Source: Blautia parvula
GTDB taxonomy: Bacteria; Bacillota; Clostridia; Lachnospirales; Lachnospiraceae
Length of the DNA: 64,000 nt
NCBI RefSeq assembly: GCF_020215665.1
Contig: NZ_CP084061.1
Span: forward strand, 62,001 to 126,000
Direction: 5' to 3'
In this document: positions 12,324-33,251 of the stretch, in pieces
Layout of the letters: each line of letters starts with the position of its first letter
Position numbering within the stretch: position 1 is the stretch's first letter
Position numbers and translations under genes: made by a program
The notes under the pieces: generated by a model
Told to the model about the DNA's origin: nothing
What the model saw: only the letters and a program-made list of their open reading frames with translations
Database searches by the model: none

Positions 12324-12324
12324 A

Positions 12325-16984: not shown

Positions 16985-17015
16985 ATATGGAAAATGACAA
17001 TGTTTTTATATTCTA

Positions 17016-17037: not shown

Positions 17038-17052
17038 AATAGGAGGAGAGAG

Positions 17053-18300: not shown

Positions 18301-18312
18301 AGGGAGGGTAAC

Positions 18313-19314: not shown

Positions 19315-19329
19315 CAAAGGAGAAGGAAG

Positions 19330-19830
19330 ATGGAGAAAGCAAAGCAGGTTTTTAGCAGGCTGCAGGGTGCTGTGAATGCATTGACTGCGGTTATACTGGT
19401 GGCAATTATGGTGATCATACTGGTGCAGACTTTTACCAGATACGTTATTTTTTACAGCATACCCTGGTCTGAGGAGGCATCCAGGTATCTGTTCGTGGCA
19501 ATGATCCTTCTGGGAATCAATATGGGTATATCCCAGAATCTCATGGTACGCATTGACATTATAGATAATTTTCTGCCGTCCGGAGTGAAAAAGGCCTTTG
19601 AGATAGGAAGGCAGGTTCTGGCACTGGCTATATCTGCTGTGTTTTTTTACAGCACTTTTGGTATGCTGCGCATTGGAGGATACCAGTTGAGTCCGGCCAT
19701 GAGGATTCCCATGAATGTTATGTACGGAATCCTGTGTCTCGGATTTGGACTTGCAGTGATTTCCGTAATCTTTAAACTGCAGGAAACCGTAACAATGAAA
19801 ACAACCGAAGAGAAAGGGGGAAATAACTGA
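19330..19830 (+). CDS. dctQ: TRAP transporter small permease (DctQ)
   Basis: 166 residues with four hydrophobic segments and the DctQ signature FTRYVIFYSIPWSEEASRYL. It pairs with DctM in the membrane. The stop overlaps the DctM start by one base. The substrate follows from DctP. Confidence 0.85.
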   Translation: MEKAKQVFSRLQGAVNALTAVILVAIMVIILVQTFTRYVIFYSIPWSEEASRYLFVAMILLGINMGISQNLMVRIDIIDNFLPSGVKKAFEIGRQVLALAISAVFFYSTFGMLRIGGYQLSPAMRIPMNVMYGILCLGFGLAVISVIFKLQETVTMKTTEEKGGNN

Positions 19831-21113
19831 TGTCAGCTTCCGCAGCAGCTTTGATCGTTGTACTGATTGTTCTCATGCTTCTCGGCCTGCCGATTACCTG
19901 GGCCCTGGGAGGTGCATGCATCTGTGCTATATTTTTAGACCCGGCATTATCACTGGCCATGATCACCCAGAAGATTTTTACGGGGTGTGATAACTTTTCC
20001 ATGCTGGCTCTGCCCGCGTTCTTTCTGGCAGGTGATATCATGTCAAAGGGCGGTCTTTCCAAAAGGCTGGTGGCCTTTGCAGATTCCTTTGTAGGCTGGA
20101 TCTCAGGAGGAATTTCACTTGTATCTATTGTGGCGTGTACCTTTTTTGCGGCAATTTCCGGCTCCTCTGTTGCGACAACAGCGGCTATCGGCGGTCTGAT
20201 GTACCCGGAAATGGTAAAAAGAGGATATCCCAAGGATTATGCGGCAGCCGTACAGGCAATTGGCGGAACACTGGGAATCGTCATTCCGCCGTCCACAGTA
20301 TTTGTTATTTATGGTAATATTACCGGTGTATCTGTGGCAAAACTGCTGATGGCAGGTGTTCTGCCGGGTATCCTGTGCGGAATCCTGCTCTGTGTATATG
20401 CCTTTTATAAAGCAAAAAAATGTAATTTTCCAAAAGAGGCGGGATTTTCCTTCAGGAGATTTCTTCTTTCCTTCAAGGATGCAATCTGGGCATTGATCAT
20501 GCCCATCGTGATCCTGGGCGGCATTTACGCAGGTATTTTTACTCCGACGGAATCCGCAGTGGTTGCAGTGTTCTACGGATTTCTGGTGTGCATTGCTATC
20601 TACAGGGAGATCAGCGGAAAAGATGTATGGGAGATTCTGAAAGGAACTGCTGTCAGCACTGCAAACCTAATGTTCCTGGTTGTTACGGCACAGATGTTCG
20701 GATATCTGATCACTTATTATAAGATTCCGGTTGCGGTCACCAATGCATTCATGGCAGTGGCAAGTAATAAATATGTGTTCCTGGCACTGATCATTGTGCT
20801 GCTTCTTATCTGCGGTATGTTTCTGGAGGTGGGCGCCACCAATTTGATCCTCGGTCCGATTCTGGCACCGATCGCAGTGGCATTCGGCGTGGACCCGGTT
20901 CATTTTGGTATGCTGTTCGTATTTCTGTTGGCACTTGGCCAGGCGACACCGCCATTTGGGACGACTATGTTTGTGGCCTGTGGATTTTCGGAGCAGCCGG
21001 TCAGCAAAGTGGCAAAGAATCTAATTCCTTTTGTGGCGGTGGAAGTAGTTTGTGCAATTATTTTTGCCTATGTTCCGGCACTCTCCACACTGCTGCCGAA
21101 TCTGGTTTCCTGA
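19830..21113 (+). CDS. dctM: TRAP transporter large permease (DctM)
   Basis: 427 residues, strongly hydrophobic, with DctM family landmarks: LLGLPITWALGGA, LPAFFLAGDIMSKGG, AISGSSVATTAAIGGLMYPE and GTLGIVIPPSTVFVIYG. This is the sodium-coupled membrane part that takes ligand from DctP. It starts ATG 19830 with AAAGGGGGAA. Confidence 0.88.
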   Translation: MSASAAALIVVLIVLMLLGLPITWALGGACICAIFLDPALSLAMITQKIFTGCDNFSMLALPAFFLAGDIMSKGGLSKRLVAFADSFVGWISGGISLVSIVACTFFAAISGSSVATTAAIGGLMYPEMVKRGYPKDYAAAVQAIGGTLGIVIPPSTVFVIYGNITGVSVAKLLMAGVLPGILCGILLCVYAFYKAKKCNFPKEAGFSFRRFLLSFKDAIWALIMPIVILGGIYAGIFTPTESAVVAVFYGFLVCIAIYREISGKDVWEILKGTAVSTANLMFLVVTAQMFGYLITYYKIPVAVTNAFMAVASNKYVFLALIIVLLLICGMFLEVGATNLILGPILAPIAVAFGVDPVHFGMLFVFLLALGQATPPFGTTMFVACGFSEQPVSKVAKNLIPFVAVEVVCAIIFAYVPALSTLLPNLVS

Positions 21114-21153
21114 CAGAGAGATGATACTGAATTTTAATTAAGAATATGAAATA

Positions 21154-21177
21154 CTGCCCGGAATTCATTTCGGGCAG
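21154..21177 (+). terminator. Hairpin between DctM and dehydrogenase genes
   Basis: CTGCCCG (21154-21160) pairs with CGGGCAG (21171-21177). No T-run follows, so it is more likely a processing or partial-attenuation hairpin inside the operon than a full terminator. Confidence 0.45.
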
Positions 21178-21203
21178 GGGGATTACCCGGAAAGGAAAGA
21201 AAA

Positions 21204-22238
21204 ATGAAGAATACAATGAAGGAAGTAGTGGTTGTAAGGCCGCATCAGGTAGAAGTGCGTGAAGTCCCGGTTCCCGTTCCCGGTGATGATGAGGTTTTGA
21301 TTCAGATGAAGGCAGCAGGCGTATGCGGAAGTGACCATCACATTTATCACGGCGCAAATCCCTGTTCTACATATCCTCGTATCCCGGGCCATGAAAATGC
21401 GGGGATTGTTGTGAAGGCAGGAAAAAATGCAGCAAATGTAAAAGAAGGAGACCATGTGATCGTAGACCTGATCCACACATGCGGAGAATGTTATCAGTGC
21501 AGGATCGGCAGAAAAAATGTATGTGAAAAGGTAATGGTCAGAGGCTCCGGGATGGACGGCGGCTGGAGAGAATATTTTACGGCACCGGCAAATGAAGTTT
21601 ATAAGATTGATGACAGCGTGTCATGGGAGGACGCGGCTCTTGTGGAACCCTACGCTATCGGTGCGCACTGTACAGCCAGAGGACGTGTAGTACCGGAAGA
21701 TACTGTCCTGATTCTGGGAACAGGAACCATCGGTGCCATAATCCTGCAGACCTGTAAAGCAAAGGGGTGCAAAACAGTGATCTGCTGTGACATCAGCGAC
21801 AGCTCCCTGGAACGTGCAAAGGGATACGGCGCAGATTATGTGATCAATACAAAGAAAGAAAATCTGGCGGAAGCAGTCCGGAACATCACAGACGGCCATG
21901 GAGTCACCATCGCGTTTGATTCAGCCTGCTTTCCCGGTTCCCTCACAATGATCATGCAGCCGGGGATCGTCTGCAACGCAGGGCGTGTGGTCCCGCTGGG
22001 ATTTTGTACGAAACCGGAGGAAATCACACAGGCCATGATCAATCAAAGGGAACTGGACATTATAGGAACCAGGATGTCCTGTTATAAATTTGAACCGACC
22101 ATTGCGTGCATGGAGAAGAAGCAGTTTAACACAGAAGGAATCGCTACTACATTTATAAAATTCAGTGAGATTGAAAAAGTATTTCATTATATGGATAATC
22201 CGGAACCGTCGGTAAAGAAAATGGTAATTATGTTTTAG
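21204..22238 (+). CDS. Zinc-dependent medium-chain dehydrogenase, L-gulonate/L-idonate 5-dehydrogenase type
   Basis: 344 residues. Catalytic zinc ligands in VCGSDHHIYHG and IPGHENAG; structural zinc cysteines in CGECYQCRIGRKNVC; nucleotide-binding LILGTGTIGAIILQ. The overall form matches RspB / L-idonate dehydrogenase-like enzymes that oxidise C5 of hexonates. Together with the RspA-like dehydratase it fits the known L-gulonate route (gulonate to fructuronate to mannonate to 2-keto-3-deoxygluconate). Substrate is inferred from context. Confidence 0.82.
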   Translation: MKNTMKEVVVVRPHQVEVREVPVPVPGDDEVLIQMKAAGVCGSDHHIYHGANPCSTYPRIPGHENAGIVVKAGKNAANVKEGDHVIVDLIHTCGECYQCRIGRKNVCEKVMVRGSGMDGGWREYFTAPANEVYKIDDSVSWEDAALVEPYAIGAHCTARGRVVPEDTVLILGTGTIGAIILQTCKAKGCKTVICCDISDSSLERAKGYGADYVINTKKENLAEAVRNITDGHGVTIAFDSACFPGSLTMIMQPGIVCNAGRVVPLGFCTKPEEITQAMINQRELDIIGTRMSCYKFEPTIACMEKKQFNTEGIATTFIKFSEIEKVFHYMDNPEPSVKKMVIMF

Positions 22239-22262
22239 CTACAGCATACATTCAGGTTTTTG

Positions 22263-22301
22263 AAAGGAGGGCAGGATCCGGTATCCTGCAGCACAGACAT
22301 G
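22263..22301 (+). promoter_or_regulatory. Shine-Dalgarno separated from its ATG by a hairpin
   Basis: AAAGGAGG (22263-22270) is 28 bases from the only sensible start, ATG 22299. Between them GCAGGAT (22271-22277) and ATCCTGC (22283-22289) form a 7-bp stem with loop CCGGT. Folding removes 19 bases and leaves 9 between SD and ATG, an ideal distance. T4 gene 38 is a known case of such hairpin bridging. Confidence 0.55.
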
Positions 22302-23069
22302 AAGGGAAATGAATTATTTAACATAGAAGGAAAAAAAGCGATCGTGACAGGCGGAACAAGAGGTCTTGGATACGGAATGGCAGAAGGCCTTATGGAGGCC
22401 GGCTGTGAGGTGGTCATTGTGGGAACATCCCATAAGGTCCATGAAACAGCGAAACAGTTTCAGGAAAGAGGCTACAAGTGTCATGGTGTAAAAGCCAATC
22501 TGGCAGTGCGTGAGGAAGTGTACCGCTGTTTTCAGGAATGTGTGGAAAAGCTGGGAAATGATCTGGACATTCTTGTGACTGCCCATGGCATTCAGAGGCG
22601 CCACAGCGCGGAAGTGTTCCCTGTTGAGGAATGGGATGAGGTTCTGAATGTGAATCTGAATTCCGTATTTATCCTCTGCCAGGAGGCAGCTAAAATCATG
22701 CTGGAAAAAGGATATGGGAAGATCATCAATATTGCCTCCATGGTATCCTGGTTTGGAGGACAGACCGTTCCTGCCTATACAGCGGCAAAAGGCGGAGTGA
22801 CACAGCTTACAAAGGAACTGAGCAATGACTGGATCGCAAGAGGAATTAACGTAAACGCCATTGCACCGGGATATATGGCAACAGAGATGAATGCTGCCCT
22901 TCTGGATAAGGAAAATCCCAGATATCAGCAGATTACAGACAGGATTCCTGCAAACCGCTGGGGAACAGGGGATGATATGAAAGGAGCCTGTATTTTCCTG
23001 GCCTCCCATGCCAGTGATTATCTGGGCGGAGCCATTATTCCCGTAGACGGAGGATATCTTGTAAAATAA
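22299..23069 (+). CDS. Short-chain dehydrogenase/reductase of the sugar-acid operon
   Basis: 256 residues. Classical SDR: TGGTRGLGYGMAEGL nucleotide site, NIASMVSWFGG, catalytic YTAAKGG (Tyr-X3-Lys) and the ending GGAIIPVDGGYL. Closest in style to gluconate 5-dehydrogenase / 2-deoxygluconate dehydrogenase proteins. In the proposed gulonate route it could reduce fructuronate to mannonate, linking the dehydrogenase and dehydratase, because no UxuB-type enzyme is present. That assignment is inference. ATG 22299 is chosen as discussed under its ribosome site. Confidence 0.8.
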   Translation: MKGNELFNIEGKKAIVTGGTRGLGYGMAEGLMEAGCEVVIVGTSHKVHETAKQFQERGYKCHGVKANLAVREEVYRCFQECVEKLGNDLDILVTAHGIQRRHSAEVFPVEEWDEVLNVNLNSVFILCQEAAKIMLEKGYGKIINIASMVSWFGGQTVPAYTAAKGGVTQLTKELSNDWIARGINVNAIAPGYMATEMNAALLDKENPRYQQITDRIPANRWGTGDDMKGACIFLASHASDYLGGAIIPVDGGYLVK

Positions 23070-23097
23070 AATACAGGAGAAGTATGCTGTGATGTCA

Positions 23098-23108
23098 GGG
23101 GGGGGGGG
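23098..23108 (+). repeat. Run of 11 G
   Basis: An uninterrupted tract of 11 guanines in the gap after the SDR gene, 144 bases before the zinc-ribbon gene. Such tracts slip during replication and are also prone to sequencing error. No reading frame spans it. Confidence 0.7.
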
Positions 23109-23251
23109 TGAGCAAAAGGATGAACGGCTGTATTACATTGTCCTGATAAATTTTCTGATAAGGAAGAATGTCTTGTTTTAAAGAAAAATAGGGGATACAA
23201 TAGAAGATGAAAACTTATATCAGAAAGCATGTGTATCAGGAGGTGAAAAAT

Positions 23252-23446
23252 ATGGCAGTTTTAGACGGATGTGAAAGCAAATACAGAACCCCGGTATCGG
23301 AAGACCGGATATGTCCAAAATGCGGTGAGGAAGTGGAAGTTTTTACTGTAAGAGGCAGAGTTGTGGAGGAGACCAGTTGTTCCTGCGGATATGTATTTCA
23401 GGCGGAGGAAGTGGAACCTCTGAAGACGGAAAAAGAAGAGAAGTAA
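23252..23446 (+). CDS. Small zinc-ribbon protein
   Basis: 64 residues from ATG 23252 (AGGAGGTGAAA upstream; a longer frame to 23207 lacks a site). It contains one CPKCGEEVEVF ... TSCSCGYVFQ pair, a four-cysteine zinc ribbon. Function unknown; it may be a nucleic-acid-binding or redox accessory. Followed by a clear terminator, so it is a separate unit from the sugar-acid operon. Confidence 0.65.
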   Translation: MAVLDGCESKYRTPVSEDRICPKCGEEVEVFTVRGRVVEETSCSCGYVFQAEEVEPLKTEKEEK

Positions 23447-23461
23447 TAGAAAGTTTAGAAG

Positions 23462-23507
23462 TACCCGGAAGCGGCAGACAGAATAAATGCGGCTTCCGGG
23501 TATTTTT
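23462..23507 (+). terminator. Rho-independent terminator
   Basis: TACCCGGAAGC (23462-23472) pairs with GCTTCCGGGTA (23492-23502), followed by TTTTTA. Confidence 0.85.
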
Positions 23508-23586
23508 ATAAAGGAAAATTATTTCCGGCATAACAAAATTTCTGTTTCCGCATACTCTATTATAAGGAGTCATCAGGGGATGTTAT

Positions 23587-23772
23587 GTGGGAAACAGTAT
23601 GGAAAAGAGCAATTTTTTGCAGCAGGAAAATGTACATAGGATTGCGTTGACTAAGGAGCAGCAGAAGAATTTCAGCAGGCAGCTGAAGCGGGGAATCTGC
23701 AGGGAACTCCATGCGCAGAGTCTGCTGACAGATGAGCAGCTCGGCATATTGCTGAATGAGCTGGAAGAATGA
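23587..23772 (+). CDS. Small recombinase-associated protein
   Basis: 61 residues (GTG 23587; ATG 23599 is an alternative). The C-terminal half, FSRQLKRGICRELHAQSLLT followed by DEQLGILLNEL, looks like the short SHOCT-like helical ORFs often found directly before large serine recombinases of mobile elements. It is 111 bases upstream of recombinase 1. A role as excision or directionality helper is a guess from position. Confidence 0.55.
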   Translation: MGNSMEKSNFLQQENVHRIALTKEQQKNFSRQLKRGICRELHAQSLLTDEQLGILLNELEE

Positions 23773-23883
23773 GAGTATATGGCTGTTGGAATATGTTTCC
23801 GGCGGCCTTATATTTTTATTTCCTGTTTTGGCGTATAAGTCCGGCATACAGGAATTTTAATATAGAAGTTGGAGGCTTTACAG

Positions 23884-25494
23884 GTGGGAAATAAAGTGAG
23901 GGCGGCTGCGTACGGAAGAGTATCGACGGAGAAGGATGATCAGGCAAATTCCCTTAAAAGCCAGCGAAAATATTTTTCCGATTACATCAGTCAGCATGAG
24001 GACTGGGAGCTGACAGGTATTTATTATGATGAGGGAATCAGCGGAACCCAGACTGCAAAACGAAAAGGGTTCAATCAAATGATCCAGGATGCCATGGCAG
24101 GCAGGATAGATTTGATCCTCACAAAAGAAGTGTCCAGGTTTGCCAGAAATACGGTGGATACCCTGTCTTTTGTCAGAAAGTTGAAGGCAAAAGGCGTCCG
24201 GGTTATTTTTACGATAGATAATATTGATACAATGGACGGAGATGGGGAACTGCGTCTGTCCATCATGGCTACCCTTGCCCAGGATGAAAGCAGGAAGACT
24301 TCCGAACGTGTAAAGTGGGGACAGAAACGCAGAATGGAGCAGGGTGTGGTATTCGGAAGGGACCTTCTCGGATATACGGTGAAGCAGGGCAGGATGTTTG
24401 TGAATGAGGAGGAGGCAGAGATTGTCAGAAGCATATTTCATAAATATACAAATGAGCAAAAAGGTACCCATATCATTGCAAGGGAACTGCAGGAAGAAGG
24501 AATACAGCCGAATCGGGGCACTATGTGGTCAAATACTATGATCCTGAAAGTATTGAAAAATGAAAAATACGCAGGTGACTTGTGTCAGAAAAAGACGATC
24601 ACTCCGGATTACCTGTCCCACAGGAAAAAGAAGAATGAGGGTGAGGAGGAAATGGTTTACCTGAAAAACCATCATACCCCTATAATTGACAGAGTGCTGT
24701 GGGAAAGAACTCAGAAGGAGCTGGAAAGAAGGTCTTTATCCTATCACAAGGCTTCACAGTGCAGCCGTTATTGGTGCAGTGGAATGGTGAAGTGTGGTGA
24801 ATGCGGGGCCGGCTTTGTGGTCCGTACAAAAAAACGAAGGGACGGAAGTATCTACAGGGCATGGAGATGCTATCATCATGCGAACTATGGAAAGAGGAAG
24901 GAAGTTGGGGAAGGGGCAGAATACGGATGTGACAACACTGCGGTCAGTGATCTGGCGCTGCGCACCTGTGTGCATTATGCAGTAAAACAGGTGGACTTTG
25001 ACTGGGATGCCGTGGAAACAGAAATTCTCTGGCGCATTAAAAATTTGAGGCAGGCAGATACATATGCAGAGGATACTGCCGTGATTGAGAAAAAAATAGA
25101 GGAAATCCAGACAAAAAAGAAAAAATGTGTTGATCTGGCTTTGGAGGGGATTTTAAGTGCCGATGAACTGACAGAGCAGAAGGAATGGTATGACGGGCAG
25201 AAGGAGAGACTGGAGAGAAAACTTCTGAGAGCCAGAAAGGAAGAAGAGACAGAGAAGAAGAGAAGGTCCTGCTTTGAGAGATATGTGGGGGCGGTTGATA
25301 AGATATTGCATTTTAATGTGGAGGAAGAGTCTCTTTACCGGGAATTAGTGGATGAGATTATTGTATATCCCGGTCAGATCGTGTGTGTATGGCTGAAATA
25401 CATACCGTTTGGGATACAGATGAGGATTCATAGCTGTGGAAGACGTGACCGTTATCAAACGGAAATTTTAGAGTCGGTTTTGGTGGGGAAGTGA
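23884..25494 (+). CDS. Large serine recombinase 1
   Basis: 536 residues from GTG 23884, 8 bases after GGAGG. Resolvase catalytic domain with Ser in AAAYGRVSTEKDDQANSLKS and Arg in VSRFARNTVDTL; a recombinase domain (FNQMIQDAM..., IVRSIFHKYTNEQKGTHIIA); a zinc ribbon (CGECGAGFVVRT ... CYHHANYGKRKEV); and a C-terminal coiled coil rich in Lys/Glu. Its 3' end lies 57 bases from the point where the cotJC reading frame breaks off at codon 62, the usual place for an integrase relative to its attachment site. It probably integrated the DNA to its left into cotJC. Confidence 0.88.
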   Translation: MGNKVRAAAYGRVSTEKDDQANSLKSQRKYFSDYISQHEDWELTGIYYDEGISGTQTAKRKGFNQMIQDAMAGRIDLILTKEVSRFARNTVDTLSFVRKLKAKGVRVIFTIDNIDTMDGDGELRLSIMATLAQDESRKTSERVKWGQKRRMEQGVVFGRDLLGYTVKQGRMFVNEEEAEIVRSIFHKYTNEQKGTHIIARELQEEGIQPNRGTMWSNTMILKVLKNEKYAGDLCQKKTITPDYLSHRKKKNEGEEEMVYLKNHHTPIIDRVLWERTQKELERRSLSYHKASQCSRYWCSGMVKCGECGAGFVVRTKKRRDGSIYRAWRCYHHANYGKRKEVGEGAEYGCDNTAVSDLALRTCVHYAVKQVDFDWDAVETEILWRIKNLRQADTYAEDTAVIEKKIEEIQTKKKKCVDLALEGILSADELTEQKEWYDGQKERLERKLLRARKEEETEKKRRSCFERYVGAVDKILHFNVEEESLYRELVDEIIVYPGQIVCVWLKYIPFGIQMRIHSCGRRDRYQTEILESVLVGK

Positions 25495-25544
25495 GAGCAG
25501 GGATATGAAAAGATGAGGACAGAAAGCGGAGGGGGTAATAGCGG

Positions 25545-25652
25545 TTACGATATACCTATATCATTCAGGGTACCCATGGCAATGCGGTTCGGCATGGCAA
25601 AACGCTGTGACAGGTAACGCATGGAAGCGGCGATTTCGCCATCCGGTCCACC
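25545..25652 (-). pseudogene. cotJC: cotJC middle fragment (codons ~32-62)
   Basis: Read on the minus strand, the sequence gives GGPDGEIAASMRYLSQRFAM, then PNRIAMGTLNDIG, a perfect CotJC (manganese-catalase-like spore-coat protein) segment containing the first metal-ligand Glu region. It runs into ISstop at 25545. The N-terminal part of the same gene is 6.8 kb away at 32470-32583. The C-terminal ~130 codons are absent from the window. The fragment is the host DNA left between two recombinase elements. Confidence 0.85.
25548..25562. other. Junction of element 1 with cotJC
   Basis: Homology to cotJC ends at codon Gly62 (plus-strand ACC TAT ATC). The sequence here, GATATACCTATATC (25549-25562), is itself palindromic around CC, as expected for a serine-integrase crossover site. 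The matching other end of element 1 was not found in the window. Confidence 0.55.
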
Positions 25653-25673
25653 GGAGTGCAGTAACCTATAATA
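25642..25673. other. Attachment site, left end of the 6.8-kb element
   Basis: Core TCCGGTCCACC (25642-25652), followed on the element side by AGTGCAGTAACCTATAATA. The core is repeated at the right end (32486-32496), and the flanking arm is inverted there. Confidence 0.8.
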
Positions 25674-25745
25674 GTGCTTCAAACCCGCTGTTTATGCGGG
25701 TTCCGGGCATTTTTTAAGTGGCAAAATTGTTACAAAAGTATTAAA

Positions 25746-27188
25746 CTAAGAAATTATGATATCAAAATAGAGTTTGCCGGAAACCTTGTCATAAACGATC
25801 TGGTTGACGATAGTACGGATAAACATGCCCTTTGTTTCATAGTCATTTTCTGGATCCCGAACGATTTCGTAGACATTCCTTATTTCCTCTACTACATCTT
25901 TTTTCTCTGGCTGCTCGGTATTTTGAAAGATATTTTCCAATGAAGCAATCTCTTTCATGAGATACTCCCTTTGGGCATTTAAGCGTTTCCTGTTTTCTTT
26001 GTACTCTTCCAGAGTGTCTATCTCATTTTCATAGGCAGCCCGTACACGCTGCTCTTTGATGGTGATGCGGTCCAGCTCATGCTTTAAGTTATCCAGTTCG
26101 GATGTATCCGTTGAGGATATATTATCACCTTTGTAGGTATATGTAAAATCCTCTCCATTCACGATTTTTTCCAGATAATCAATGACTGCCGTTTCAACCT
26201 TCTTTACAGAAATACTGACAGATGTCTTATGGAACCCTTTGGCATATTTCCAACATTGAAAATATGGACAGGCCTGGTTGCCGGTATAGGAGAGCGTAGC
26301 ACCGCAAATAGAGCATTTTAACAGACCTGAGAGCCAATGCTTGCAGGCAGACACATTCCGGTTCTTGGCGGGGCGTCTACGGGCATTCATGAGTCTAAGG
26401 CGTTTTTTGTAACGTTCTTTTGAAAGACGAGCTTCATGTGTACCCTCAAATTCAGTTCCATTCCAGATTACGGTTCCGGTATAAAAAGGGTTTTTTAAAA
26501 TAAAGTCAATGTTTCTCCGTTCAAAGAGATTTCCCCGCTTGGTCCGATATCCCAGATCATTGCATTTCCGCGCAATCGCTGTGGTGTCAACATTATAATT
26601 GTCGTACTGATCCATAATGTAATCTATGATTCGGTATTCTTTTTCGTTAATAATGAATGGCTGGCCGTTTCCTACGGCATCATATCCGAGGCATGGAGTA
26701 GCCTGATATCCGTTCTTTAGAGCTTTTTCCTTCATGCCACGAAGAACTTCGCCGGACAAACGGATGGAATAGTATTCATCCATCCATTCAATGATTCTTT
26801 CTATGAGTGTTCCAAACGGACCGTCAATGAGTGGTTCGGAAACACTGATGACCTCCACACCATCTTTTTTCAACATACTTTTGTAAACAATGGATTCCTC
26901 CTGGTTCCTGGCAAAACGGCTGTATTTCCATACCAGAATGACGTCAATGGGGTGGCTTTCCTGCTTGGCAGTGGCAATCATCTTTTGAAACTCAGGCCTC
27001 TTCTGGGCCCGGCGGCCGGAAACACTTTCCATGTAAACAAAATCATTGGATATGACAATGTTATTCTTTTTGGCATAATCCAGAAGGAGACGTTTCTGTG
27101 CGTCCGGGGACAGCTCTGCCTGATCAGCGGTGCTGACGCGGATGTAGAGGGCACCGGTCCGTAGTTGTTTTGTATCATTTTCGGACAT
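25746..27188 (-). CDS. Large serine recombinase 2 (element integrase)
   Basis: 480 residues. Catalytic Ser in ALYIRVSTADQAELSPDAQK and Arg in VWKYSRFARNQEES; recombinase domain with AIARKCNDLGYRTKRGNLFE and NPFYTGTVIWNG; zinc ribbon SGLLKCSICGATLSYTG ... CPYFQCW; and a long coiled coil near residues 350-440. Its 3' end lies 94 bases from the left attachment core, so it is the integrase of the 6.8-kb element. It belongs to a different branch from recombinase 1 (little similarity outside the catalytic motifs). Start 27188 follows GAGGTGATAA. Confidence 0.9.
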   Translation of the reverse strand: MSENDTKQLRTGALYIRVSTADQAELSPDAQKRLLLDYAKKNNIVISNDFVYMESVSGRRAQKRPEFQKMIATAKQESHPIDVILVWKYSRFARNQEESIVYKSMLKKDGVEVISVSEPLIDGPFGTLIERIIEWMDEYYSIRLSGEVLRGMKEKALKNGYQATPCLGYDAVGNGQPFIINEKEYRIIDYIMDQYDNYNVDTTAIARKCNDLGYRTKRGNLFERRNIDFILKNPFYTGTVIWNGTEFEGTHEARLSKERYKKRLRLMNARRRPAKNRNVSACKHWLSGLLKCSICGATLSYTGNQACPYFQCWKYAKGFHKTSVSISVKKVETAVIDYLEKIVNGEDFTYTYKGDNISSTDTSELDNLKHELDRITIKEQRVRAAYENEIDTLEEYKENRKRLNAQREYLMKEIASLENIFQNTEQPEKKDVVEEIRNVYEIVRDPENDYETKGMFIRTIVNQIVYDKVSGKLYFDIIIS

Positions 27189-27365
27189 TATTTTATCACC
27201 TCTTATATATAATATTGATTTTTAGGTACAAAAATAACAGCCAGCGAACTTTTGTTCCGCTTGCGTGGCTGCTCCGGAGATGATACAATATCAGTGTCTA
27301 AGTAATAAGTATGCATCTTCGGATGTATGGCCGGTCTCTGTTGGCGCAGGGGCCGGTTTTACTAT

Positions 27366-27393
27366 TTGACATTTCGGTATATTTTGCTATAAT
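27366..27393 (+). promoter_or_regulatory. Promoter of the antitoxin RNA
   Basis: TTGACA (27366-27371), 16 bases, TATAAT (27388-27393): consensus on both boxes, with no reading frame downstream. It points at the 3' end of the opposing toxin gene. Confidence 0.75.
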
Positions 27394-27399
27394 ATACTT

Positions 27400-27509
27400 A
27401 ACAAGACAGCCGACAGGTAGGTGCACGCTACCCGTCCCGGCGAAATATAGTTACACTATTTAAAAATAGCCGTTCCTAAACTTTGACGAGAGCAGGACGG
27501 CTATTTTTT
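27400..27509 (+). ncRNA. Candidate antitoxin RNA of a type I toxin-antitoxin pair
   Basis: About 110 bases from the promoter at 27366 to a strong terminator (AAAAATAGCCGT 27462-27473 paired with ACGGCTATTTTT 27497-27508). The 3' part is antisense to the end of the toxin mRNA, overlapping its stop codon. A GGTAG/CTACC hairpin lies near the 5' end. This is the arrangement of the TxpA/RatA class. The terminator stem is symmetrical and can also end the toxin transcript. Confidence 0.7.
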
Positions 27510-27587
27510 ATGTATCTGAACAATCAGTGCGATTATACCTGTTATCATGATGATAAAGGTAAAGAGGTCACTATAAGTCACGTACAT
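27501..27587 (-). CDS. Hol_Tox-type small membrane toxin
   Basis: 28 residues: MYVTYSDLFTFIIMITGI, then a hydrophobic stretch and a QIHKK tail. It closely fits the 'putative holin-like toxin' peptides (Hol_Tox, related to TxpA/BsrG) that damage membranes when unrepressed. AAAGGGGTGG precedes the ATG at 27587. An opposing RNA gene overlaps its 3' end. Within a mobile element such a pair would act as a maintenance (addiction) module. It was below the usual ORF-length cutoff. Confidence 0.75.
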   Translation of the reverse strand: MYVTYSDLFTFIIMITGIIALIVQIHKK

Positions 27588-27668
27588 AAGCACCACCCCT
27601 TTCCGCAAGACTCGGAACGGGATAGAGGGCCGCCTGTTCGGCTGCCTGGGTGAGTATATTATTTTTGT

Positions 27669-27700
27669 GGCCCCTGCTGTTGGGGCAGGGGCCGGTTGTT
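27669..27700. terminator. GC-rich hairpin upstream of the toxin
   Basis: GGCCCCTGC (27669-27677) pairs with GCAGGGGCC (27685-27693), followed by GGTTGTTTT. A related but weaker GGCCGG...GGCCGG structure with the same flanks lies near 27330-27356, suggesting a duplicated module. Confidence 0.6.
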
Positions 27701-27765
27701 TTGTATGATGGAATATTTAACATTTGGACAAAACCGCGTAAATATAGGTATCATATTCGTTGGAT

Positions 27766-28449
27766 TTAATTCAAATTAGCTATCGCATAATCGGCTTCTT
27801 CAGCAGTAAACTGTTCGCCATACTCTGAAGTAAGCTGGTCACGTATGGCTTCGGGAGACATATCCATTGTATCCTGATAGTTCTTTGCTGTTGCTAAAGC
27901 ATTTGCATTCCAGTCAGCTTCTATGGTGTCGACAGCATACTGGGCTTCTTCTGGAGTAAATTGTTCTCCATTTTCTGATACAAGTTGATTGTATAGACCC
28001 ATTTTAGACATATGCATGGTTTCGTTGTAGTTTTCAGCTGTTGCCAATGCATTTGCATTCCAGTCAGCTTCTATGGTGTCGACAGCATACTGGGCAGCTT
28101 CAGCAGAAAATTTTTCACCGTATTCTGAGGTGAGCTGGTCATAAAGGCCTGCTTTAGACATATGCATGGTTTCGCTATAGCTTTTGGCTTTATTAAGTGC
28201 AGATTTGTACTCCTTGGGGACCTGATCATCTTTGGAATTATCGGTAGCAGACTGCTCCTCTTTGGGTTCAGTAGATTTATCTTGTTCTTCAGTCTTTTCT
28301 GTTGATGCGGCTGTTTTTTTGGTCGTGTTTTGGGCCTTGTCTTTGTCACCGCCTATTGTTGAACCGATTCCTCCTATTATTGCGAGTGCAAGAACAATTA
28401 TAAGTAATGTTTTAAGACAGCTCCCTTTCTTTTTTCCTTCTTTAGACAT
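27766..28449 (-). CDS. Ltp-family membrane-anchored protein, three repeats
   Basis: 227 residues. A cytoplasmic basic start (MSKEGKKKGSCLK) and one membrane helix (LLIIVLALAIIGGIGSTIGG) are followed by a charged linker and three ~48-residue PF07553-type repeats (TMHMSKAGLYDQLTSEYGEK, AQYAVDTIEADWNANALATA and two near copies). Ltp proteins of phage TP-J34 and relatives block entry of DNA from incoming phages, so a superinfection-exclusion role is likely. There is a cysteine in the leader, but no proper lipobox. Start 28449 follows AAGGAGGAAA. Confidence 0.75.
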   Translation of the reverse strand: MSKEGKKKGSCLKTLLIIVLALAIIGGIGSTIGGDKDKAQNTTKKTAASTEKTEEQDKSTEPKEEQSATDNSKDDQVPKEYKSALNKAKSYSETMHMSKAGLYDQLTSEYGEKFSAEAAQYAVDTIEADWNANALATAENYNETMHMSKMGLYNQLVSENGEQFTPEEAQYAVDTIEADWNANALATAKNYQDTMDMSPEAIRDQLTSEYGEQFTAEEADYAIANLN

Positions 28450-28483
28450 GTAGATTTCCTCCTTAACTTATACGAATATAGAA

Positions 28484-29323
28484 TCATTGGTCAATTTTAT
28501 CAACATATACTCCAGGGATAGTAATGGTTCCTCCTAAAGTTGATTTATAGCTGATTGTACCAACAGAAGTTCCATATATCGTTATATGGTCATCTTCTAA
28601 TATCCTAGAGGAAACTATACTTTTTGAATATTCTGCAAGTAAAACTGTATCATAATCATCGTTGACTGCTAGGCGGATCTGGGTACTAGTATCGCCCTCC
28701 ATGACTTGAATTACTTTACCTGAAAATTTAACTTTTTTTGAAAGATAATCATCAGGAGTTCTGGCTAACTGGTCATATGAAATACCAGTTTCGTAACCTT
28801 GGGCCTCCTCCTCAGCAGCAGCCTGTTCCTGAGCGGATAATGAGGCATCAGCCGCTTGAACTGCCTGCATTAGTTCATTTTTTTTGGTTTCATCAGTTAA
28901 AGTATTAACCTTGGCTAAGGCATCATTATATAATTCTCTAGTAGCCCCGGATACCAACGTACCATTAGCAAAATCCCATATTTTATTTACGGCATCAGTA
29001 GCGGCAGTTTGATTTTGTGATTCCTTTTGGGCGGCTTCAGCTTCAGCCTTTTTTTGTTCAGCTTCGGCCGCTTCCATTTCCTCAAATGGCTTCATTTTTT
29101 CTTTGTACTTATCAAACTCTGATTTTAGTGAATCATAATCAGACTGCAATGCTATAAGGTCAGATTTTGATTTTTCAAGTTCGTCTTTTGAATCTTCTAA
29201 TTGAGATTCCAGTTTGCTGTTTTTTTCTTTGGCAGAGTTATAATCAGCTTCATTGATTCCGCATGATGTGAACGTCAAGGACATTGACATTGCAAGTAAT
29301 AGTGCTGCCATTTTTTTCTTCAT
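28484..29323 (-). CDS. Coiled-coil lipoprotein with OB-fold-like domain
   Basis: 279 residues. Lipoprotein signal with lipobox LTFTSCG (Cys 21); a coiled coil over residues ~25-110 (KSKSDLIALQSDYDSLKSEF, then an Ala/Glu/Gln-rich stretch); and a C-terminal ~90-residue beta domain (YLSKKVKFSGKVIQVMEGDT, DDHITIYGTSVGTISY) resembling tRNA_anti-like OB folds of annotated 'toxin regulator' lipoproteins. It sits just upstream of the Ltp gene on the same strand. Function unknown; surface location is clear. Confidence 0.7.
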   Translation of the reverse strand: MKKKMAALLLAMSMSLTFTSCGINEADYNSAKEKNSKLESQLEDSKDELEKSKSDLIALQSDYDSLKSEFDKYKEKMKPFEEMEAAEAEQKKAEAEAAQKESQNQTAATDAVNKIWDFANGTLVSGATRELYNDALAKVNTLTDETKKNELMQAVQAADASLSAQEQAAAEEEAQGYETGISYDQLARTPDDYLSKKVKFSGKVIQVMEGDTSTQIRLAVNDDYDTVLLAEYSKSIVSSRILEDDHITIYGTSVGTISYKSTLGGTITIPGVYVDKIDQ

Positions 29324-29648
29324 AAGTTTTTCCCCCAGTACATTATAATATTTATTAATACGCCGAAGCGGATTAATCTACATCTGCTCATCAGGTAATA
29401 TGTTAAGTGTGCGGTCGTTGGTTAGAGATAATATTCCATTCACCTCCTAGATGGTGGCAGTTGAACTATCTTGCATCATAAGTGGTATAAACGTTATAGT
29501 GTACATGTACTTCGTTTCTCTGATTGATATACCTAAACCCTTAAGACTAGCTGTTAAATCTCCTATAAAATATTGATATGAAAAATCAAGTACTAAAACT
29601 TCATAATCATCTTCTGGTTTTGTTTTTTTATTCTCACTCCCTATTGAG

Positions 29649-29855
29649 TCAATATATTGGTCTTTTCTTCGATAGATCATCTGACATAGCCCAACACAGG
29701 GCATATAACTCAGAGCACAGATATCTTGCTCGTTCGTACGTAAATACTTTAAATCCGTAGTATTCAAAGACAGCGATATAATCAAATGGGAAGTCTTTAA
29801 TTCCACATTCTGTACAGACTTCTCAGACTTTTTTATGTAGTTTTTCAGGATTCAT
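29649..29855 (-). pseudogene. Decayed ImmA/IrrE-type metallopeptidase
   Basis: From ATG 29855 the frame reads MNPEKLHKKV, an in-frame TGA, then EVCTECGIKDFPFDYIAVFE, YYGFKVFTYERARYLC and ALCWAMSDDLSKK before another stop. This resembles the N-terminus of ImmA/IrrE peptidases that cleave the cognate XRE repressor. The HEXXH-bearing part is not seen. It lies 14 bases after the XRE gene, the usual partner position. A 119-residue open frame (29447-29806) overlaps in another phase and is probably a shadow. Confidence 0.5.
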
Positions 29856-29869
29856 TTTGTTCTCCAGAA

Positions 29870-30196
29870 TTACTCAATTCTTTCGGACAAAAGTTGTATC
29901 AGGTGCAATTTCTGCTCTTTTGACATTTGTTTCCCATTTCTGGCAATGAGGCGTTCGACATCATCATATGACGGCTCATGTTTTGAGATGTCTTCATCAG
30001 TGTCACAAAAATATTCAGCGTCTACGCCAAGTTCTTTAGCAAGCTTAAAGAGAACTTCTATATCTGCTTTTTTACTGTCGCGTCTAATCATAGAATAAAT
30101 AGTGGTAGGAGCAACTCCAATATTTTGTGCTAATTCATTTGCATTCATGTTTCTTTTTTTTAGTAACTTCTCCAGTTTGGCTCCAATTCCCATCAT
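29870..30196 (-). CDS. XRE-family repressor of the element
   Basis: About 108 residues. Helix-turn-helix LEKLLKKRNMNANELAQNIG-VAPTTIYSMIRRDSKKADIEVL, then DAEYFCDTDEDIS and a short helical tail (MSKEQKLHLIQLLSERI). The tail style is common in phage and ICE repressors that are cleaved by ImmA peptidases; the decayed partner follows. Start ATG 30196 or 30193, after AAAGGCGGTGAT. Confidence 0.8.
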   Translation of the reverse strand: MMGIGAKLEKLLKKRNMNANELAQNIGVAPTTIYSMIRRDSKKADIEVLFKLAKELGVDAEYFCDTDEDISKHEPSYDDVERLIARNGKQMSKEQKLHLIQLLSERIE

Positions 30197-30492
30197 ATCA
30201 CCGCCTTTCATATAAATATATGATAACACATTTAAATAAGTAAGTAAATGAAAGAATGCGCAAATGCGTAAAAAACATTGAAATATTACTCATTTAGGAT
30301 TGATGTATGGTTATGAATGACGCATTTGAATATAAGTGGGAATGTAAGGGGGTACTTGAATCTAAAAGCAGAGATGGCAAAGAAGGGAATAATCTTTGAA
30401 AATGTAGCACAATTATAGACAGGAAATAGTGGAAAATCAATAAGTATCCCAGACAACCCCAGTTACATACCATAATCAGAGAGGGTGATGGC

Positions 30493-30645
30493 ATGAAAAT
30501 AGAAGTAGTACCCCGTTTTCGTATAGAAGGGAAATACTATACGATGGACCAGTTACCAGAAGAACAGGTGAGGGAGATTGTCATAGAGAAGCTTGACCTG
30601 GCAATGGCCGCATTGAAATACGAGAGGAAAAGAGCCGCCAAATAA
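30493..30645 (+). CDS. 50-residue ORF of ICE type
   Basis: ATG 30493 (GAGGGTGATGGC upstream) to TAA 30643. Soluble, charged: MKIEVVPRFRIEGKYYTMDQ ... and a Lys/Arg end. The form resembles small accessory ORFs of clostridial conjugative elements. Divergent from the XRE gene, so possibly its target. Function unknown. Confidence 0.5.
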   Translation: MKIEVVPRFRIEGKYYTMDQLPEEQVREIVIEKLDLAMAALKYERKRAAK

Positions 30646-30671
30646 GGCGGTAAGAAGGAGAGGAAAAGTTC

Positions 30672-30787
30672 ATGCACTATGAAACCATAAAAGACGCAGC
30701 CTTATGTACCGCTCTTGCTACATCAACCAGATTTTAGCAGCCACGGGACTGGGAAAGACAGATAAAAAAGAGTTAATTATGGGATAG
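30672..30787 (+). pseudogene. Remnant of a small ICE regulatory ORF
   Basis: Two short frames overlap: MHYETIKDAALCTALA... (30672-30737) and another from 30701 (ILAATGLGKTDKKELIMG). MHYETIK is a typical beginning of small helix-turn-helix ORFs in conjugative transposons. The break between phases suggests decay. Confidence 0.35.
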
Positions 30788-30826
30788 ATGCGAATAGATG
30801 TACGTCCTTATTATATGACTTTCACA

Positions 30827-31006
30827 TTATTTTTTTGTGAATTTAATGATTGGTTTGTTCTTTATCTTATTCCATATAAATAGTAACAGTCCAATAATTG
30901 CAATAATAAAACCGTGTATAGGCTTTGTAACAACAAGATAAGCAACTACCAGCCAAAAAATAAGGGATAATAAAGCTTTAAAAAAATCTTTTTTCTTTTT
31001 AGTCAT
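30827..31006 (-). CDS. 59-residue membrane protein
   Basis: Start at 31006 behind AGAGG, stop TAA at 30827. Basic N-terminus (MTKKKKDFFKA), two hydrophobic helices (LLSLIFWLVVAYLVV and GFIIAIIGLLLFIW) joined by TKPIH, and a Lys-rich tail. No family recognised. Plausible as an element-encoded membrane protein. Confidence 0.5.
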   Translation of the reverse strand: MTKKKKDFFKALLSLIFWLVVAYLVVTKPIHGFIIAIIGLLLFIWNKIKNKPIIKFTKK

Positions 31007-31379
31007 AAGTCAACCTCTTTTTCTTTTCATTATACTCCTATGGTAGGAGAAAATCCAGATTAGTGTAATGTTGTGCTTATAAAGAAGGAGGGCCGGGTCA
31101 GCAGGCCCGGCAGTATGAAAAAGAAAAGTCTATATGAAAAAGGTTATTGCCCTTTGTTGAGTATTACTATACCGGGAAAATGTGATGAAACTGTGGTAAA
31201 AAGATAAAAGAAATGTAAAGAGTTTTTGAAAGATTTATGAAAGCAGATGTGAGGTGATGACGATGGATAAGAAGACGTTCCCTTTACTGAGGTGCGGACG
31301 TCTGTACATATAGATGAGTCGAAAGAGACTGACGAGATTGACCGGCGGCTGTGGATAGGAAAGAGAGGGGGGATGGAGT
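31007..31379. other. Non-coding or decayed stretch
   Basis: About 370 bases with only short interrupted frames. The last part probably holds the decayed beginning of the ISL3-type transposase. I see no promoter or RNA I would name. Confidence 0.4.
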
Positions 31380-31696
31380 TTGAAGAGTTTATATCGTTTG
31401 CAGGCTGTCTTGGAATATGGAAATGTCATTGGTGTTGATGACTTTGCATTTAAAAGCGGCACACATACGGTACAATCATTGTAAATCAGGCTACCCATAG
31501 GCCGGTTGCGGTACTTGATGGACGTGATGGAATGACCCTAAAGGAATGGCTTAAGAACAATAAGCATATTAAAGCAGTTACACGAGACAGGAGAAGTGCC
31601 TATGCGTCTGCTATTCAGGAAATACTGTCCGATGCTATGCAGATAGCGGATAGATATCATCTCCACCAAAACCTTCTGGAAGCCATTAAGGTATGA
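31380..31696 (+). pseudogene. ISL3-family transposase fragment
   Basis: Two frames separated by a one-base shift near 31466 read LQAVLEYGNVIGVDDFAFKS and then YGTIIVNQATHRPVAVLDGR, MTLKEWLKNNKHIKAVTRDR and AMQIADRYHLHQNLLEAI. This is the DDE core of ISL3 transposases (GVDDFAF, TRDR...Y, IADRYHL). No start codon, no inverted repeats and no second half, so it is dead. Confidence 0.75.
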
Positions 31697-32275
31697 CAGT
31701 TGAAGGGGATGATGGTAAAAAGTATCATATCCGCTCAGTTGGAATGGTGAAATCTGCAGATAGTATCACTGCTACGACACCCTGCTTTGATTGAAGGTGA
31801 ATTTGATCTTGATAGTTGGTAGTTCACACACTTAGAAACGGAGAATTAGAAGATGAAGACCAGGAAAATTATGAATTTATGTCTTTTTGAGGAAGGCGGT
31901 GACGGCAGCCAGACAAGCTCCGGAAATGTGATATTGGACAGAAGCAGACCACAAAACAGGTATGGGATAAGAAATTTATCACGGTAGAAGAAATCGCAGT
32001 CATTGTGCCGGACCCGAATCCGTGCTGGATAACTCTGACTATGATATCTGGGGCAAAGTTAAGCTCAGAATTGTGGAAGTATTTGGTCAAAAAAATGGCG
32101 GGCCGTATTTTTTGATGTAGATAAGCCGTCTACATGGAGAGATGGCGTTGTTGCTACAGCAACAAAAGGGGTTCTGCAGTTGATTTTGGAGAATCTGATA
32201 ATCTGTATGAGAAAATTATGGGTGAGGACGGTGCGATTGCGAAGGGCGGAGCATTCCGGCTTTTTTGTTAATGGG
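31697..32275 (+). pseudogene. Multiply frameshifted phage/ICE-like remnant
   Basis: Pieces in shifting frames: KYHIRSVGMVKSADSIT, VWDKKFITVEEIAVIV, then DYDIWGKVKLRIVEVFGQKN, FFDVDKPSTWRDGVVATATK and EKIMGEDGAIAKGGAFRLF. They look like a single ancestral protein broken by at least three indels. I do not recognise the family. Confidence 0.4.
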
Positions 32276-32321
32276 CATATAGCTGATATCTCTATGAAAG
32301 CGGAGCTCAGAGGTTTGGGGG

Positions 32322-32408
32322 ATGATAGAAATTATATTAGACGTGGTGCAGATCATTGTCAGCACAGGAATCATTGTAGTGCTGCTCAAAGACCGGAAAT
32401 GCAAGTAA
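32322..32408 (+). CDS. 28-residue membrane peptide, copy 2 of a two-copy family
   Basis: M followed by the same IEIILDVVQIIVSTGIIVVL and LKDRKCK as copy 1 at 4436-4528. All 8 sense-codon differences between the copies are silent. The 3' flank, including the CCGGCGC/GCGCCGG hairpin, is shared. The surrounding DNA is decayed, yet this frame is intact, which is evidence of selection or of recent arrival. GGGGG lies just before the ATG. Confidence 0.6.
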   Translation: MIEIILDVVQIIVSTGIIVVLLKDRKCK

Positions 32409-32419
32409 GAACTACCGGA

Positions 32420-32441
32420 CCGGCGCCCGGTTATGCGCCGG
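32420..32441 (+). terminator. Hairpin after peptide copy 2
   Basis: CCGGCGC (32420-32426) pairs perfectly with GCGCCGG (32435-32441). Copy 1 has the same hairpin with one G.T pair. Confidence 0.5.
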
Positions 32442-32467
32442 ATCTATTCGATTTTACTATGAATTTT

Positions 32468-32496
32468 TATTATAGGTTATTACACTCCGGTCCACC
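32468..32496. other. Attachment site, right end of the 6.8-kb element
   Basis: Element arm TATTATAGGTTATTACACT (32468-32486), then core TCCGGTCCACC (32486-32496), then host cotJC DNA. The arm is the inverted counterpart of the left-end arm. Confidence 0.8.
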
Positions 32497-32583
32497 ATAC
32501 TGACTCATAATAAACAAAGCAGCCTTGGCATTCGGCGTTTTAATATTTATCGGATACTGTAATCTCTTCTCATAATTCCACAT
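32470..32583 (-). pseudogene. cotJC: cotJC 5' fragment (codons 1-32)
   Basis: ATG 32583 behind AAAGGAGGGAG begins MWNYEKRLQYPINIKTPNAK and continues to SQYGGP, the N-terminus of CotJC. The element adds E-C-N-N-L-stop. Without the element, GGP would continue to DGEIAAS at 25652. As it stands no functional coat protein can be made unless the element excises. Confidence 0.88.
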
Positions 32584-32601: not shown

Positions 32602-32862
32602 CTATTCCCAAGGCCACGGCTGCATCACCCAGTCCCATGAGGTGCTGCAGTCATCATCAGCAGTTGCAATGGTAAGCGGGCCATAATACATGGCGTATTC
32701 TTTCAGTGCCTCTTCACGGATGCGAATCTTATCTGTCATAAATTCCATGGCACATTTGTCATCCGGATGGGTGTCGAGGTAGAGGTTCATATCGTTGACA
32801 GCGAAGCTGACCTCATTGATCAGCTGCATTAACTGCGCTTTGCTGCGTCTGCATTCTTTCAT
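32602..32862 (-). CDS. cotJB: Spore-coat protein CotJB
   Basis: 86 residues from ATG 32862, which overlaps the cotJA stop (ATGA). KAQLMQLINEVSFAVNDMNL, YLDTHPDDKCAMEFM and YYGPLT are CotJB family features; the tail is rich in Trp and Pro (WDWVMQPWPWE). It is made in the mother cell and helps load CotJC on the spore coat. Intact even though cotJC is split. Confidence 0.88.
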   Translation of the reverse strand: MKECRRSKAQLMQLINEVSFAVNDMNLYLDTHPDDKCAMEFMTDKIRIREEALKEYAMYYGPLTIATADDDCSTSWDWVMQPWPWE

Positions 32863-33146
32863 CGACAGCCACCTCTCTTTCCACAGAATGGTTTGCACAG
32901 TTCAGGGAAGATGGTTCCCATCTGCAGTGCTTTACACAGTTCAAAGGTGGTTTTAAATTTCTGCATTGGCACATATGCCATGGTAAGCGGCAGCTTATCA
33001 GCATGTTCGTAGATTGAGGTGTTGTCTACCATATCGCAGTTACAGCCGCAGGGTGTACGGCGGCCGCAGTTGTTCCGTGCCGGCATTTCCCTGTTCGGCG
33101 GAGAATACGGACGGACGCCCTGATAATTCATTCGACATTTTTCCAT
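32859..33146 (-). CDS. cotJA: Spore-coat associated protein CotJA
   Basis: 95 residues from ATG 33146 (AAAGGA upstream; a longer frame lacks a site). The conserved part is LPLTMAYVPMQKFKTTFELC ... MGTIFPELCKPFCG. The N-terminal stretch is Cys/Arg/Pro rich. First gene of cotJABC, which is normally under mother-cell sigma-E control. A clear sigma-E promoter could not be assigned by eye. Confidence 0.88.
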   Translation of the reverse strand: MEKCRMNYQGVRPYSPPNREMPARNNCGRRTPCGCNCDMVDNTSIYEHADKLPLTMAYVPMQKFKTTFELCKALQMGTIFPELCKPFCGKRGGCR

Positions 33147-33251
33147 ATCTGGTTTTCCTTTATATTTACTTATACAGTAATATCTTATGAAAGACTGCAT
33201 AAAATGTTAAATATTCTTTACGCTGAAGCGCTAAAATGGTATAATAACAAA

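Follow-up and report, generated by a model that had tools for sequence, protein, structure and literature searches.

Large serine recombinase elements stacked in the spore-coat gene cotJC of Blautia parvula, and their predicted excision during sporulation

In the Blautia parvula genome studied here (G000), the spore-coat gene cotJC begins behind two intact genes of its operon, cotJA and cotJB, and is cut within its first 33 codons by a mobile element. This raises the question of whether such a gene is lost, or whether it is put together again when a spore is made. Our starting point was a 64,000-nucleotide stretch (the window), positions 62,001-126,000 of the single 6,247,046-bp contig of this genome. 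Four elements turn out to cut cotJC, each with its own large serine recombinase whose gene has its 3′ end at one end of the element. The best reading, and in our view quite a probable one, is that these elements are removed from the mother-cell chromosome by programmed excision during sporulation, for which purifying selection in lineages sharing a cut, together with predicted attachment sites in viral contigs, provides the main support.

The pieces of cotJC

An earlier reading made from the sequence alone (the sequence-only reading) had described cotJA and cotJB as intact, which is borne out by the match of both to their Pfam families, and had seen cotJC split by one element of about 6.8 kb that carries a large serine recombinase and would restore the frame on leaving. 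This first cut is as described. An 11-bp core, TCCGGTCCACC on the forward strand, lies at window positions 25642-25652 and 32486-32496, 6,844 bp apart, the next longest in-register match at this junction is 2 bp, and the join is in frame (...MSQYGGPDGEIAAS...). The element's recombinase, which we label recA in this analysis (and that of a second element recB), has the three expected domains. The gene does resume at 25652 as had been stated, yet it is still broken after the join, because the resumed piece 2 ends at codon 62. The notion of a single element therefore had to be given up, one of the four lying outside the window.

The whole of cotJC, 633 bp and 210 codons, is distributed in five pieces over 131,338 bp from start to stop codon, and this span includes the start of the contig, which behaves as a circle in that one open reading frame (ORF) reads across both of its ends. 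The order is piece 1, element A (6,844 bp), piece 2, element B (20,414 bp), a piece of 12 nt, element D (80,621 bp), piece 3, element C (22,826 bp) and piece 4, and the lengths add up exactly (6,844 + 20,414 + 80,621 + 22,826 + 633 = 131,338 bp). The insertion points fall at codons 30-33, 62, 65 and 134-136, with the coding-strand cores GGTGGACCGGA for A, AGGTA for B, GAA for D and GCAGCAGA for C. Beyond the first cut, the window holds those of B (25553-25557) and D (5131-5133, the element leaving the window at its left end), and the fourth, that of C, lies outside. A search of the genome with the Pfam family Mn_catalase placed the remaining cotJC sequence at 6,233,310-6,233,567 and 6,210,373-6,210,531 on the same strand, and the joined gene has no stop and matches Mn_catalase.

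Treating the second interruption (site 2) as one element gave a join that read GTDE. This candidate was ruled out by the junctions in two other genomes of the genus, G008 and G011, and by the symmetry of the phage-type attachment site (attP). There are two stacked elements, B and D, 12 nt apart, and the true sequence is GTEE. The half-sites are seen separately, in a single B element in G008 and a single D-type element in G011, and joining the ends of D gives an attP with 14-bp inverted arms flanking a central GA. A further genome, G007, carries the same B/D stack in its cotJC, with a 12-nt piece at the same place (GGT ACA GAG GAA). Two other readings were likewise set aside. The 101 kb that separate piece 2 from piece 3 are not native chromosome or the product of a rearrangement, as G008 has B alone there and the relative L013 has an uncut cotJC, with cotJB upstream of it and a downstream gene resembling, by eye, the one behind piece 4. 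Nor is the contig start the origin of replication; it is arbitrary, since dnaA lies at 4.25 Mb.

Could this arrangement have arisen in the assembly? We found nothing in support of that. The sequence is a single contig with an ORF across its ends, the same structure is present in G007 and, for B, in G008, and cuts occur at the same codon clusters in 63 typed genomes of the family, so that we give an artefact next to no chance.

Selection on the cut gene

The exact restoration of the frame is inherent in any site-specific integration and is by itself no evidence of a programme, which is why selection on the cut gene was tested. Genomes that share cuts make this possible: B, D and C all lie in cotJC of G007 too, and B alone in that of G008. 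For the genes of B, the median synonymous divergence (dS) from G007 is 0.69 (14 genes), with flank medians of 0.65 and 0.58 (3 and 4 genes), and from G008 it is 0.90 (15 genes), with flank medians of 0.63 and 0.78 (3 and 3 genes). Because the dS of B is near that of its flanks, B was probably resident throughout the divergence of the three species.

The joined cotJC genes of G000 and G007 differ at 54 positions, 51 of them synonymous and 3 nonsynonymous, which corresponds to a dS of 0.53 and a ratio of nonsynonymous to synonymous divergence (dN/dS) of 0.011; the ratio is 0.027 for G000-G008 and 0.029 for G007-G008. In all three genomes the joined gene is free of stops and of equal length, 630 nt. 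When 54 changes were placed neutrally in 2000 simulated runs, they caused 37 amino-acid changes on average and never fewer than 25, and a stop arose in 77% of the runs. Uncut cotJC pairs of the genus give dN/dS values of 0-0.057 (median 0.033) in the 11 of 55 with dS below 2, these pairs sharing genes and hence not being independent. Even the 12-nt piece differs between G000 and G007 by a synonymous change only. For site 1, the pair G006-G002 gives a cotJC dS of 1.41 with dN/dS 0.0145, next to a dS of 1.07 for the recombinase and 1.37 for cotJB, the cotJC pieces of G002 sitting on different contigs. The recombinase gene of B, recB, is itself under purifying selection (dN/dS 0.105-0.127). Judged by its substitutions, the cut cotJC is evolving like a working gene, under purifying selection as strong as in uncut copies, and the rebuilt gene may be functional.

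These data bear directly on the possibility that cotJC is simply broken, its pieces relics and its function taken over by another copy. Such a copy exists: an intact cotJC, 61-62% identical to the cut one, stands at genome position 5,434,074 (locus L001) in an uncut cotJB-cotJC operon. The sequence-only reading had held that an intact second cotJC would leave only a broken gene. The copy is indeed there; the conclusion fails, given that the cut gene evolves like a working one. With the frame open at full length in three species, so low a dN/dS at the dS seen between G000 and G007, and a 12-nt piece that has changed only silently, we hold a merely broken gene to be very improbable. Full-length matches of about 60-67% identity are present in addition to the cut copy in other members of the family as well.

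Sites, recombinases and element contents

The sequence-only reading had asked for a survey of other genomes, and this revealed both further elements at the same place (site 1) and uncut cotJC (as in L013). Within the genus, all 20 genomes searched, G000 included, have a cotJC match; junctions were read in G002, G005, G006, G007, G008, G011 and G018 (with the two pieces on different contigs in G002, G005, G011 and G018), and in G017 the match ends at the position of site 4. A match turned up in 250 of the 396 genomes of the family. Review row by row covered 138 of these (50, 53 and 36, one being counted twice) and about 110 lay outside it, so that the family counts of cuts are lower bounds. Sites were typed from the partial matches of 117 genomes, leaving aside near-full-length rows and those that looked like frameshifts or other paralogues (among them G046, rows with identities of 33-35%, and part of those from G279, G320, G325, G354, G375 and G389).

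At least 64 family genomes, G000 and G006 among them, have collinear cotJC pieces on one contig with a gap of more than 800 bp, a figure that includes G240, where the junction lies elsewhere and in another paralogue, and G158, with 42-43% identity; at least 37 more have such pieces across contigs only. The script allowed an overlap of up to 25 codons, which excluded site 4 of G359 and the G279 junction. The 73 same-contig junctions among the genomes listed are divided between site 1 (26), site 2 (2a or 2b; 27), site 3 (8) and site 4 (11), with one elsewhere, so that 72 of the 73 fall in four clusters comprising five sites. Gaps between the pieces range from 1.55 to 117.6 kb. Of 35 junctions, 29 gave the consensus protein again when joined in register by script, and two more did so when joined by hand, the stacked site 2 of G000 and of G007; four of the 35 (G228 site 2, G356 site 2, G253 and G134) had no resolution. 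Loci L141 (G309) and L145 (G149) hold tiny elements of 1.6 and 2.7 kb with shortened recombinases, possibly decaying or trans-dependent cuts.

The recombinases taken from cut loci form five families, one per site, and the nearest neighbour of each was found at the same site in 37 of 37 cases. For G228 and G356 at site 2, and for G007, the site was assigned partly by the recombinase family itself, without an independently resolved core. Resolvase, Recombinase and zinc-ribbon domains were found above the Pfam cut-offs in all five proteins scanned, one per site family, and the recombinases of all four G000 elements have them. Among the loci read, no rule emerged for the orientation of the recombinase relative to cotJ. 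The site-3 recombinase (L009:4652-6211) also has DUF4368, a domain associated in PMC10083194 with multi-target recombinases, yet all the site-3 cuts observed fall at a single position.

In a sample of the class, 104 of 147 genomes have a match. Outside the family, at least five carry same-contig cuts at site 2, and in at least eight others the pieces are spread over separate contigs near sites 2 or 3; the case of G469 is a frameshift, and that of G418 is odd. Two site-2 loci of other genera, L147 (G356) and L148 (G399), hold what reads as metabolic cargo (dehydrogenase, anaerobic ribonucleotide reductase, ABC transport), and no phage genes were noticed among their longer ORFs.

Free forms were sought by running the predicted attP patterns of elements A, C and D on viral contigs. 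The attP predicted from the two ends of A is present, identical over 45 nt, in one 29-kb viral contig. The D pattern matched one viral contig, in which the ends of the D element of G007 are joined as predicted: the left end of that prophage makes up the first 648 bases of the contig (100% identical) and the right end bases 638-11,300 (99.8%), giving 99.8-100% identity over 11.3 kb. The C pattern had no match in these contigs. Scanning the viral contigs brought up 75 relatives of A's recombinase, with a piece of cotJC behind the gene in 6 of the 44 that have enough sequence there. In 65 viral loci (3 of 68 were left out), the sequence behind the recombinase shows a piece of cotJC in 15, an inverted repeat in 20, resembling a terminator in some of them, and neither in 16; in 14 it is too short.

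Coordinates of the features within the window are collected in Table 1.

Table 1. Pieces of cotJC, inserted elements and associated features in the window
Feature	Position in window	Strand	Remarks
Sigma-K-type promoter motif of the cotJ operon	33181..33207	-	AC-N16-CATAAGATA
cotJA	32859..33140	-	intact; Pfam CotJA, E 1.5e-18
cotJB	32602..32871	-	intact; Pfam CotJB, E 5.5e-28
cotJC piece 1	32486..32583	-	codons 1-29 and site 1 core GGTGGACCGGA (coding strand)
Element A (site 1)	25653..32485		serine recombinase, repressor-like gene, two lipoprotein genes, broken transposase-like gene
recA	25746..27188	-	large serine recombinase of 480 amino acids, site-1 family; Resolvase, Recombinase and zinc-ribbon domains
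cotJC piece 2	25553..25652	-	site 1 core to site 2a core, codons 30-62
Element B (site 2a)	5144..25552		element window 5139-25557; sugar-acid/TRAP-transport, MATE and cation-ATPase-like genes, serine recombinase
Cores of element B	25553-25557 and 5139-5143		AGGTA (coding strand)
recB	23869..25494	+	large serine recombinase of 541 amino acids, site-2a family
ORF of 57 amino acids	23599..23772	+	directly precedes recB; ORFs resembling it (by eye) at 5 of the 7 site-2a loci inspected
Mother-cell-type promoter motif	23533..23559	+	AC-N16-CATACTCTA; upstream of the 57-amino-acid ORF and recB
cotJC micro-piece	5131..5142	-	12 nt between B and D, GGT ACT GAG GAA, residues GTEE
Prophage D (site 2b), right end	1..5130		D continues left to genome position 6,233,556; 80.6 kb including a nested conjugative element

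With respect to their contents, the gene names given for B, D and C are a reading of the translations, without a family search. Element A looks like the reduced remains of a prophage. Its two lipoprotein genes (window 27766-28449 and 28484-29323, one of the Ltp family) include one, the second, of which prophage D holds what is by eye a near copy (genome 6,236,581-6,237,393); by analogy, the Ltp-family protein may serve in superinfection exclusion. The broken transposase-like gene of A, at about 31400-31700 in the window, is presumably ISL3-like. Between the sugar genes of B and recB lies an ORF of 64 amino acids that reads as zinc-ribbon-like (window 23252-23446). D, a prophage of the tailed-phage type, encloses a second element, a conjugative one, at about 30.5-62.8 kb of the genome (ending near window position 800); the nested element has what reads as a tyrosine-type integrase and mostly lacks a like-placed match in the D of G007. 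Element C has conjugation genes, again by reading.

Excision, landing sites and known systems

How might such a gene be rebuilt? In the sporulating mother cell, each recombinase would recombine its own attL and attR, the switch to excision probably being made by a small directionality factor coded by the element. Through four excisions the mother-cell chromosome, and it alone, would become shorter by about 131 kb, and a 210-codon gene coding for a coat protein of the manganese-catalase type would be restored, while the forespore would keep all elements and the germ line would suffer no loss. The timing in sporulation, the cell type, the directionality factors and the occurrence of all four events in one cell are parts of this scheme that we infer.

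Upstream of cotJ, the motif AC-N16/17-CATAnnnTA was found in 16 of 17 loci scanned, at a background of 0.015 per 500 bp in a 178-kb stretch. According to PMC3789822, the -35 element of sigma K is AC, the -10 elements of sigma E and sigma K resemble each other, and two CotJC-type catalase genes of C. difficile, cotCB and cotD, are downregulated when sigK is mutated. The sigma-K-type motif and these homologues together point to mother-cell control of cotJ. The corresponding motif in front of recB keeps its -10 in G000, G007 and G008, with GC instead of AC as -35 in the latter two. Sought upstream of 35 recombinases of the five families, the full AC/GC motif was seen only in the three Blautia B elements and at one site-1 recombinase (G369); the site-3 elements have a -10-like string in common and are close relatives. 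As for directionality, small ORFs that are similar by eye precede the recombinase in 5 of 7 site-2a, 6 of 6 site-3 and 4 of 7 site-4 loci, and none was evident in the loci read by eye for sites 1 and 2b. On the analogy with GirX (PMC5595907), such ORFs are candidate directionality factors, and the 57-amino-acid ORF may be one, or a regulator.

Several observations weigh against programmed excision. The dS of recB, 1.08 and 1.46, exceeds that of the flanks and of the rest of B, which may reflect an exchange of the end of B that carries the recombinase. D is mosaic, with a median dS of 1.03, and the median for C, 1.39, is above that of the chromosome, so that both may be separate, younger insertions in each species. 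The shared-cut selection test covers site 2a and, in the other pair (G006-G002), site 1. The promoter motif is absent upstream of 4 of the 7 site-2a recombinases (G356, G399, G369 and G123, of other genera), and of the 28 loci of the other four families it was present at the site-1 locus of G369 alone, in its GC form. In G011 (3 and 3 bp) and G320 (6 and 6 bp) the core does not exceed the next match in length. Some recombinases are shortened (273 amino acids in G149, 305 in G309 and 402 in G123), and the cuts in question may be permanent. As the viral contigs show, elements of the A and D types have a phage form, and this requires no sporulation. Finally, with an intact paralogue in the same genome, the loss of the cut cotJC might be tolerated, and insertional mutants of two CotJC-type catalase genes in C. 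difficile are reported to show lower catalase activity without a significant coat defect (PMC11222575); the paralogue leaves the dN/dS of 0.011 unexplained.

Much of this would fit another account, under which cotJC would be no more than a favoured landing site. Recombinases for this well-conserved and dispensable gene would have evolved in phages, conjugative elements and islands, which would depart only on moving elsewhere; the gene would be repaired just in those few cells or lineages from which an element has gone, and the selection seen would stem from element-free periods. Precise restoration comes with site-specific integration anyway, the predicted attP of A and of D is found in one viral contig each among relatives of these elements, C has its conjugation genes, D and C seem to have entered G000 and G007 independently, recB has diverged more than the rest of B, and the paralogue is intact. 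Yet B is common to three species with a dS close to that of the chromosome, and cotJC there keeps a dN/dS of 0.011-0.029; recB is under purifying selection and has a mother-cell-type motif in front of it in the three Blautia elements; and G253, G285 and G343, each a single contig, have no match other than the pieces of the cut copy. A mere landing site thus seems unlikely to us, and programmed excision is favoured, because the former leaves unexplained the selection on a gene cut by an island nearly as old as the chromosome around it.

We also lean, somewhat less firmly, towards seeing cotJC as a recombination hub of the Clostridia, with five fixed sites, each served by one recombinase family, used by phages, conjugative elements and metabolic islands, where four mother-cell excisions amounting to about 2% of the chromosome would be needed in G000. 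The gene would then be a natural test bed for parasites that shelter in genes which only a doomed cell uses, for the non-interference of several recombinases and for the amount of DNA that a mother cell can delete. A further gain is a set of five recombinase families, each matched to its site and with att sites defined, and annotators should be aware that a cotJC of gut bacteria that looks "broken" may be unbroken.

In the full-text literature, where titles and the openings of abstracts were judged and most subscription papers lay outside, we found no account of elements that cut cotJC. The nearest case is phi027 of C. difficile, whose attR borders cotG, a CotJC-type catalase gene (PMC11222575, PMC12122855); cotG is described there as downstream of attR, with no mention of a cut, whereas cotJC here is cut. 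In a study of the target genes of large serine recombinases (PMC10083194), the main text searched contains neither "spore" nor "catalase", and "sporulation" once.

The arrangement as such would be a variant of the skin and SP-beta type. Like the known sporulation gene-intervening elements skin, SP-beta, vfbin, gin and yin, those in cotJC are inserted inside coding sequence, have a serine recombinase and att cores, and leave a restored ORF when joined by script. Among the closest is skin in sigK of B. subtilis and C. difficile, again a serine-recombinase element inside a mother-cell sporulation gene that is rebuilt by excision (PMC5595907, PMC5025042); there, however, one element sits in a regulator gene, whereas cotJC has four in a structural coat gene, with excision predicted. 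The SP-beta prophage in spsM of B. subtilis, a spore-envelope gene, is excised during sporulation (PMC4191935, PMC5595907) and resembles D in being a prophage inside such a gene, although it is one prophage at one site and cotJC harbors prophages plus a conjugative element and a metabolic island. The gin element in gerE of B. cereus ATCC10987, non-phage, with serine recombinases, a 9-bp core and a need for GirX with GirC (PMC5595907), is akin to B as a non-phage element in a mother-cell gene, B being a different island with another target. The prophage-like yin in yabG of C. botulinum (PMC10747680) lies, as the cotJC elements do, in a clostridial sporulation gene; it differs in the gene and in being one element. 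The sporulation gene rearrangements that we encountered thus have one element per gene, whereas the 633 bp of cotJC offer five fixed sites, four of them occupied at once.

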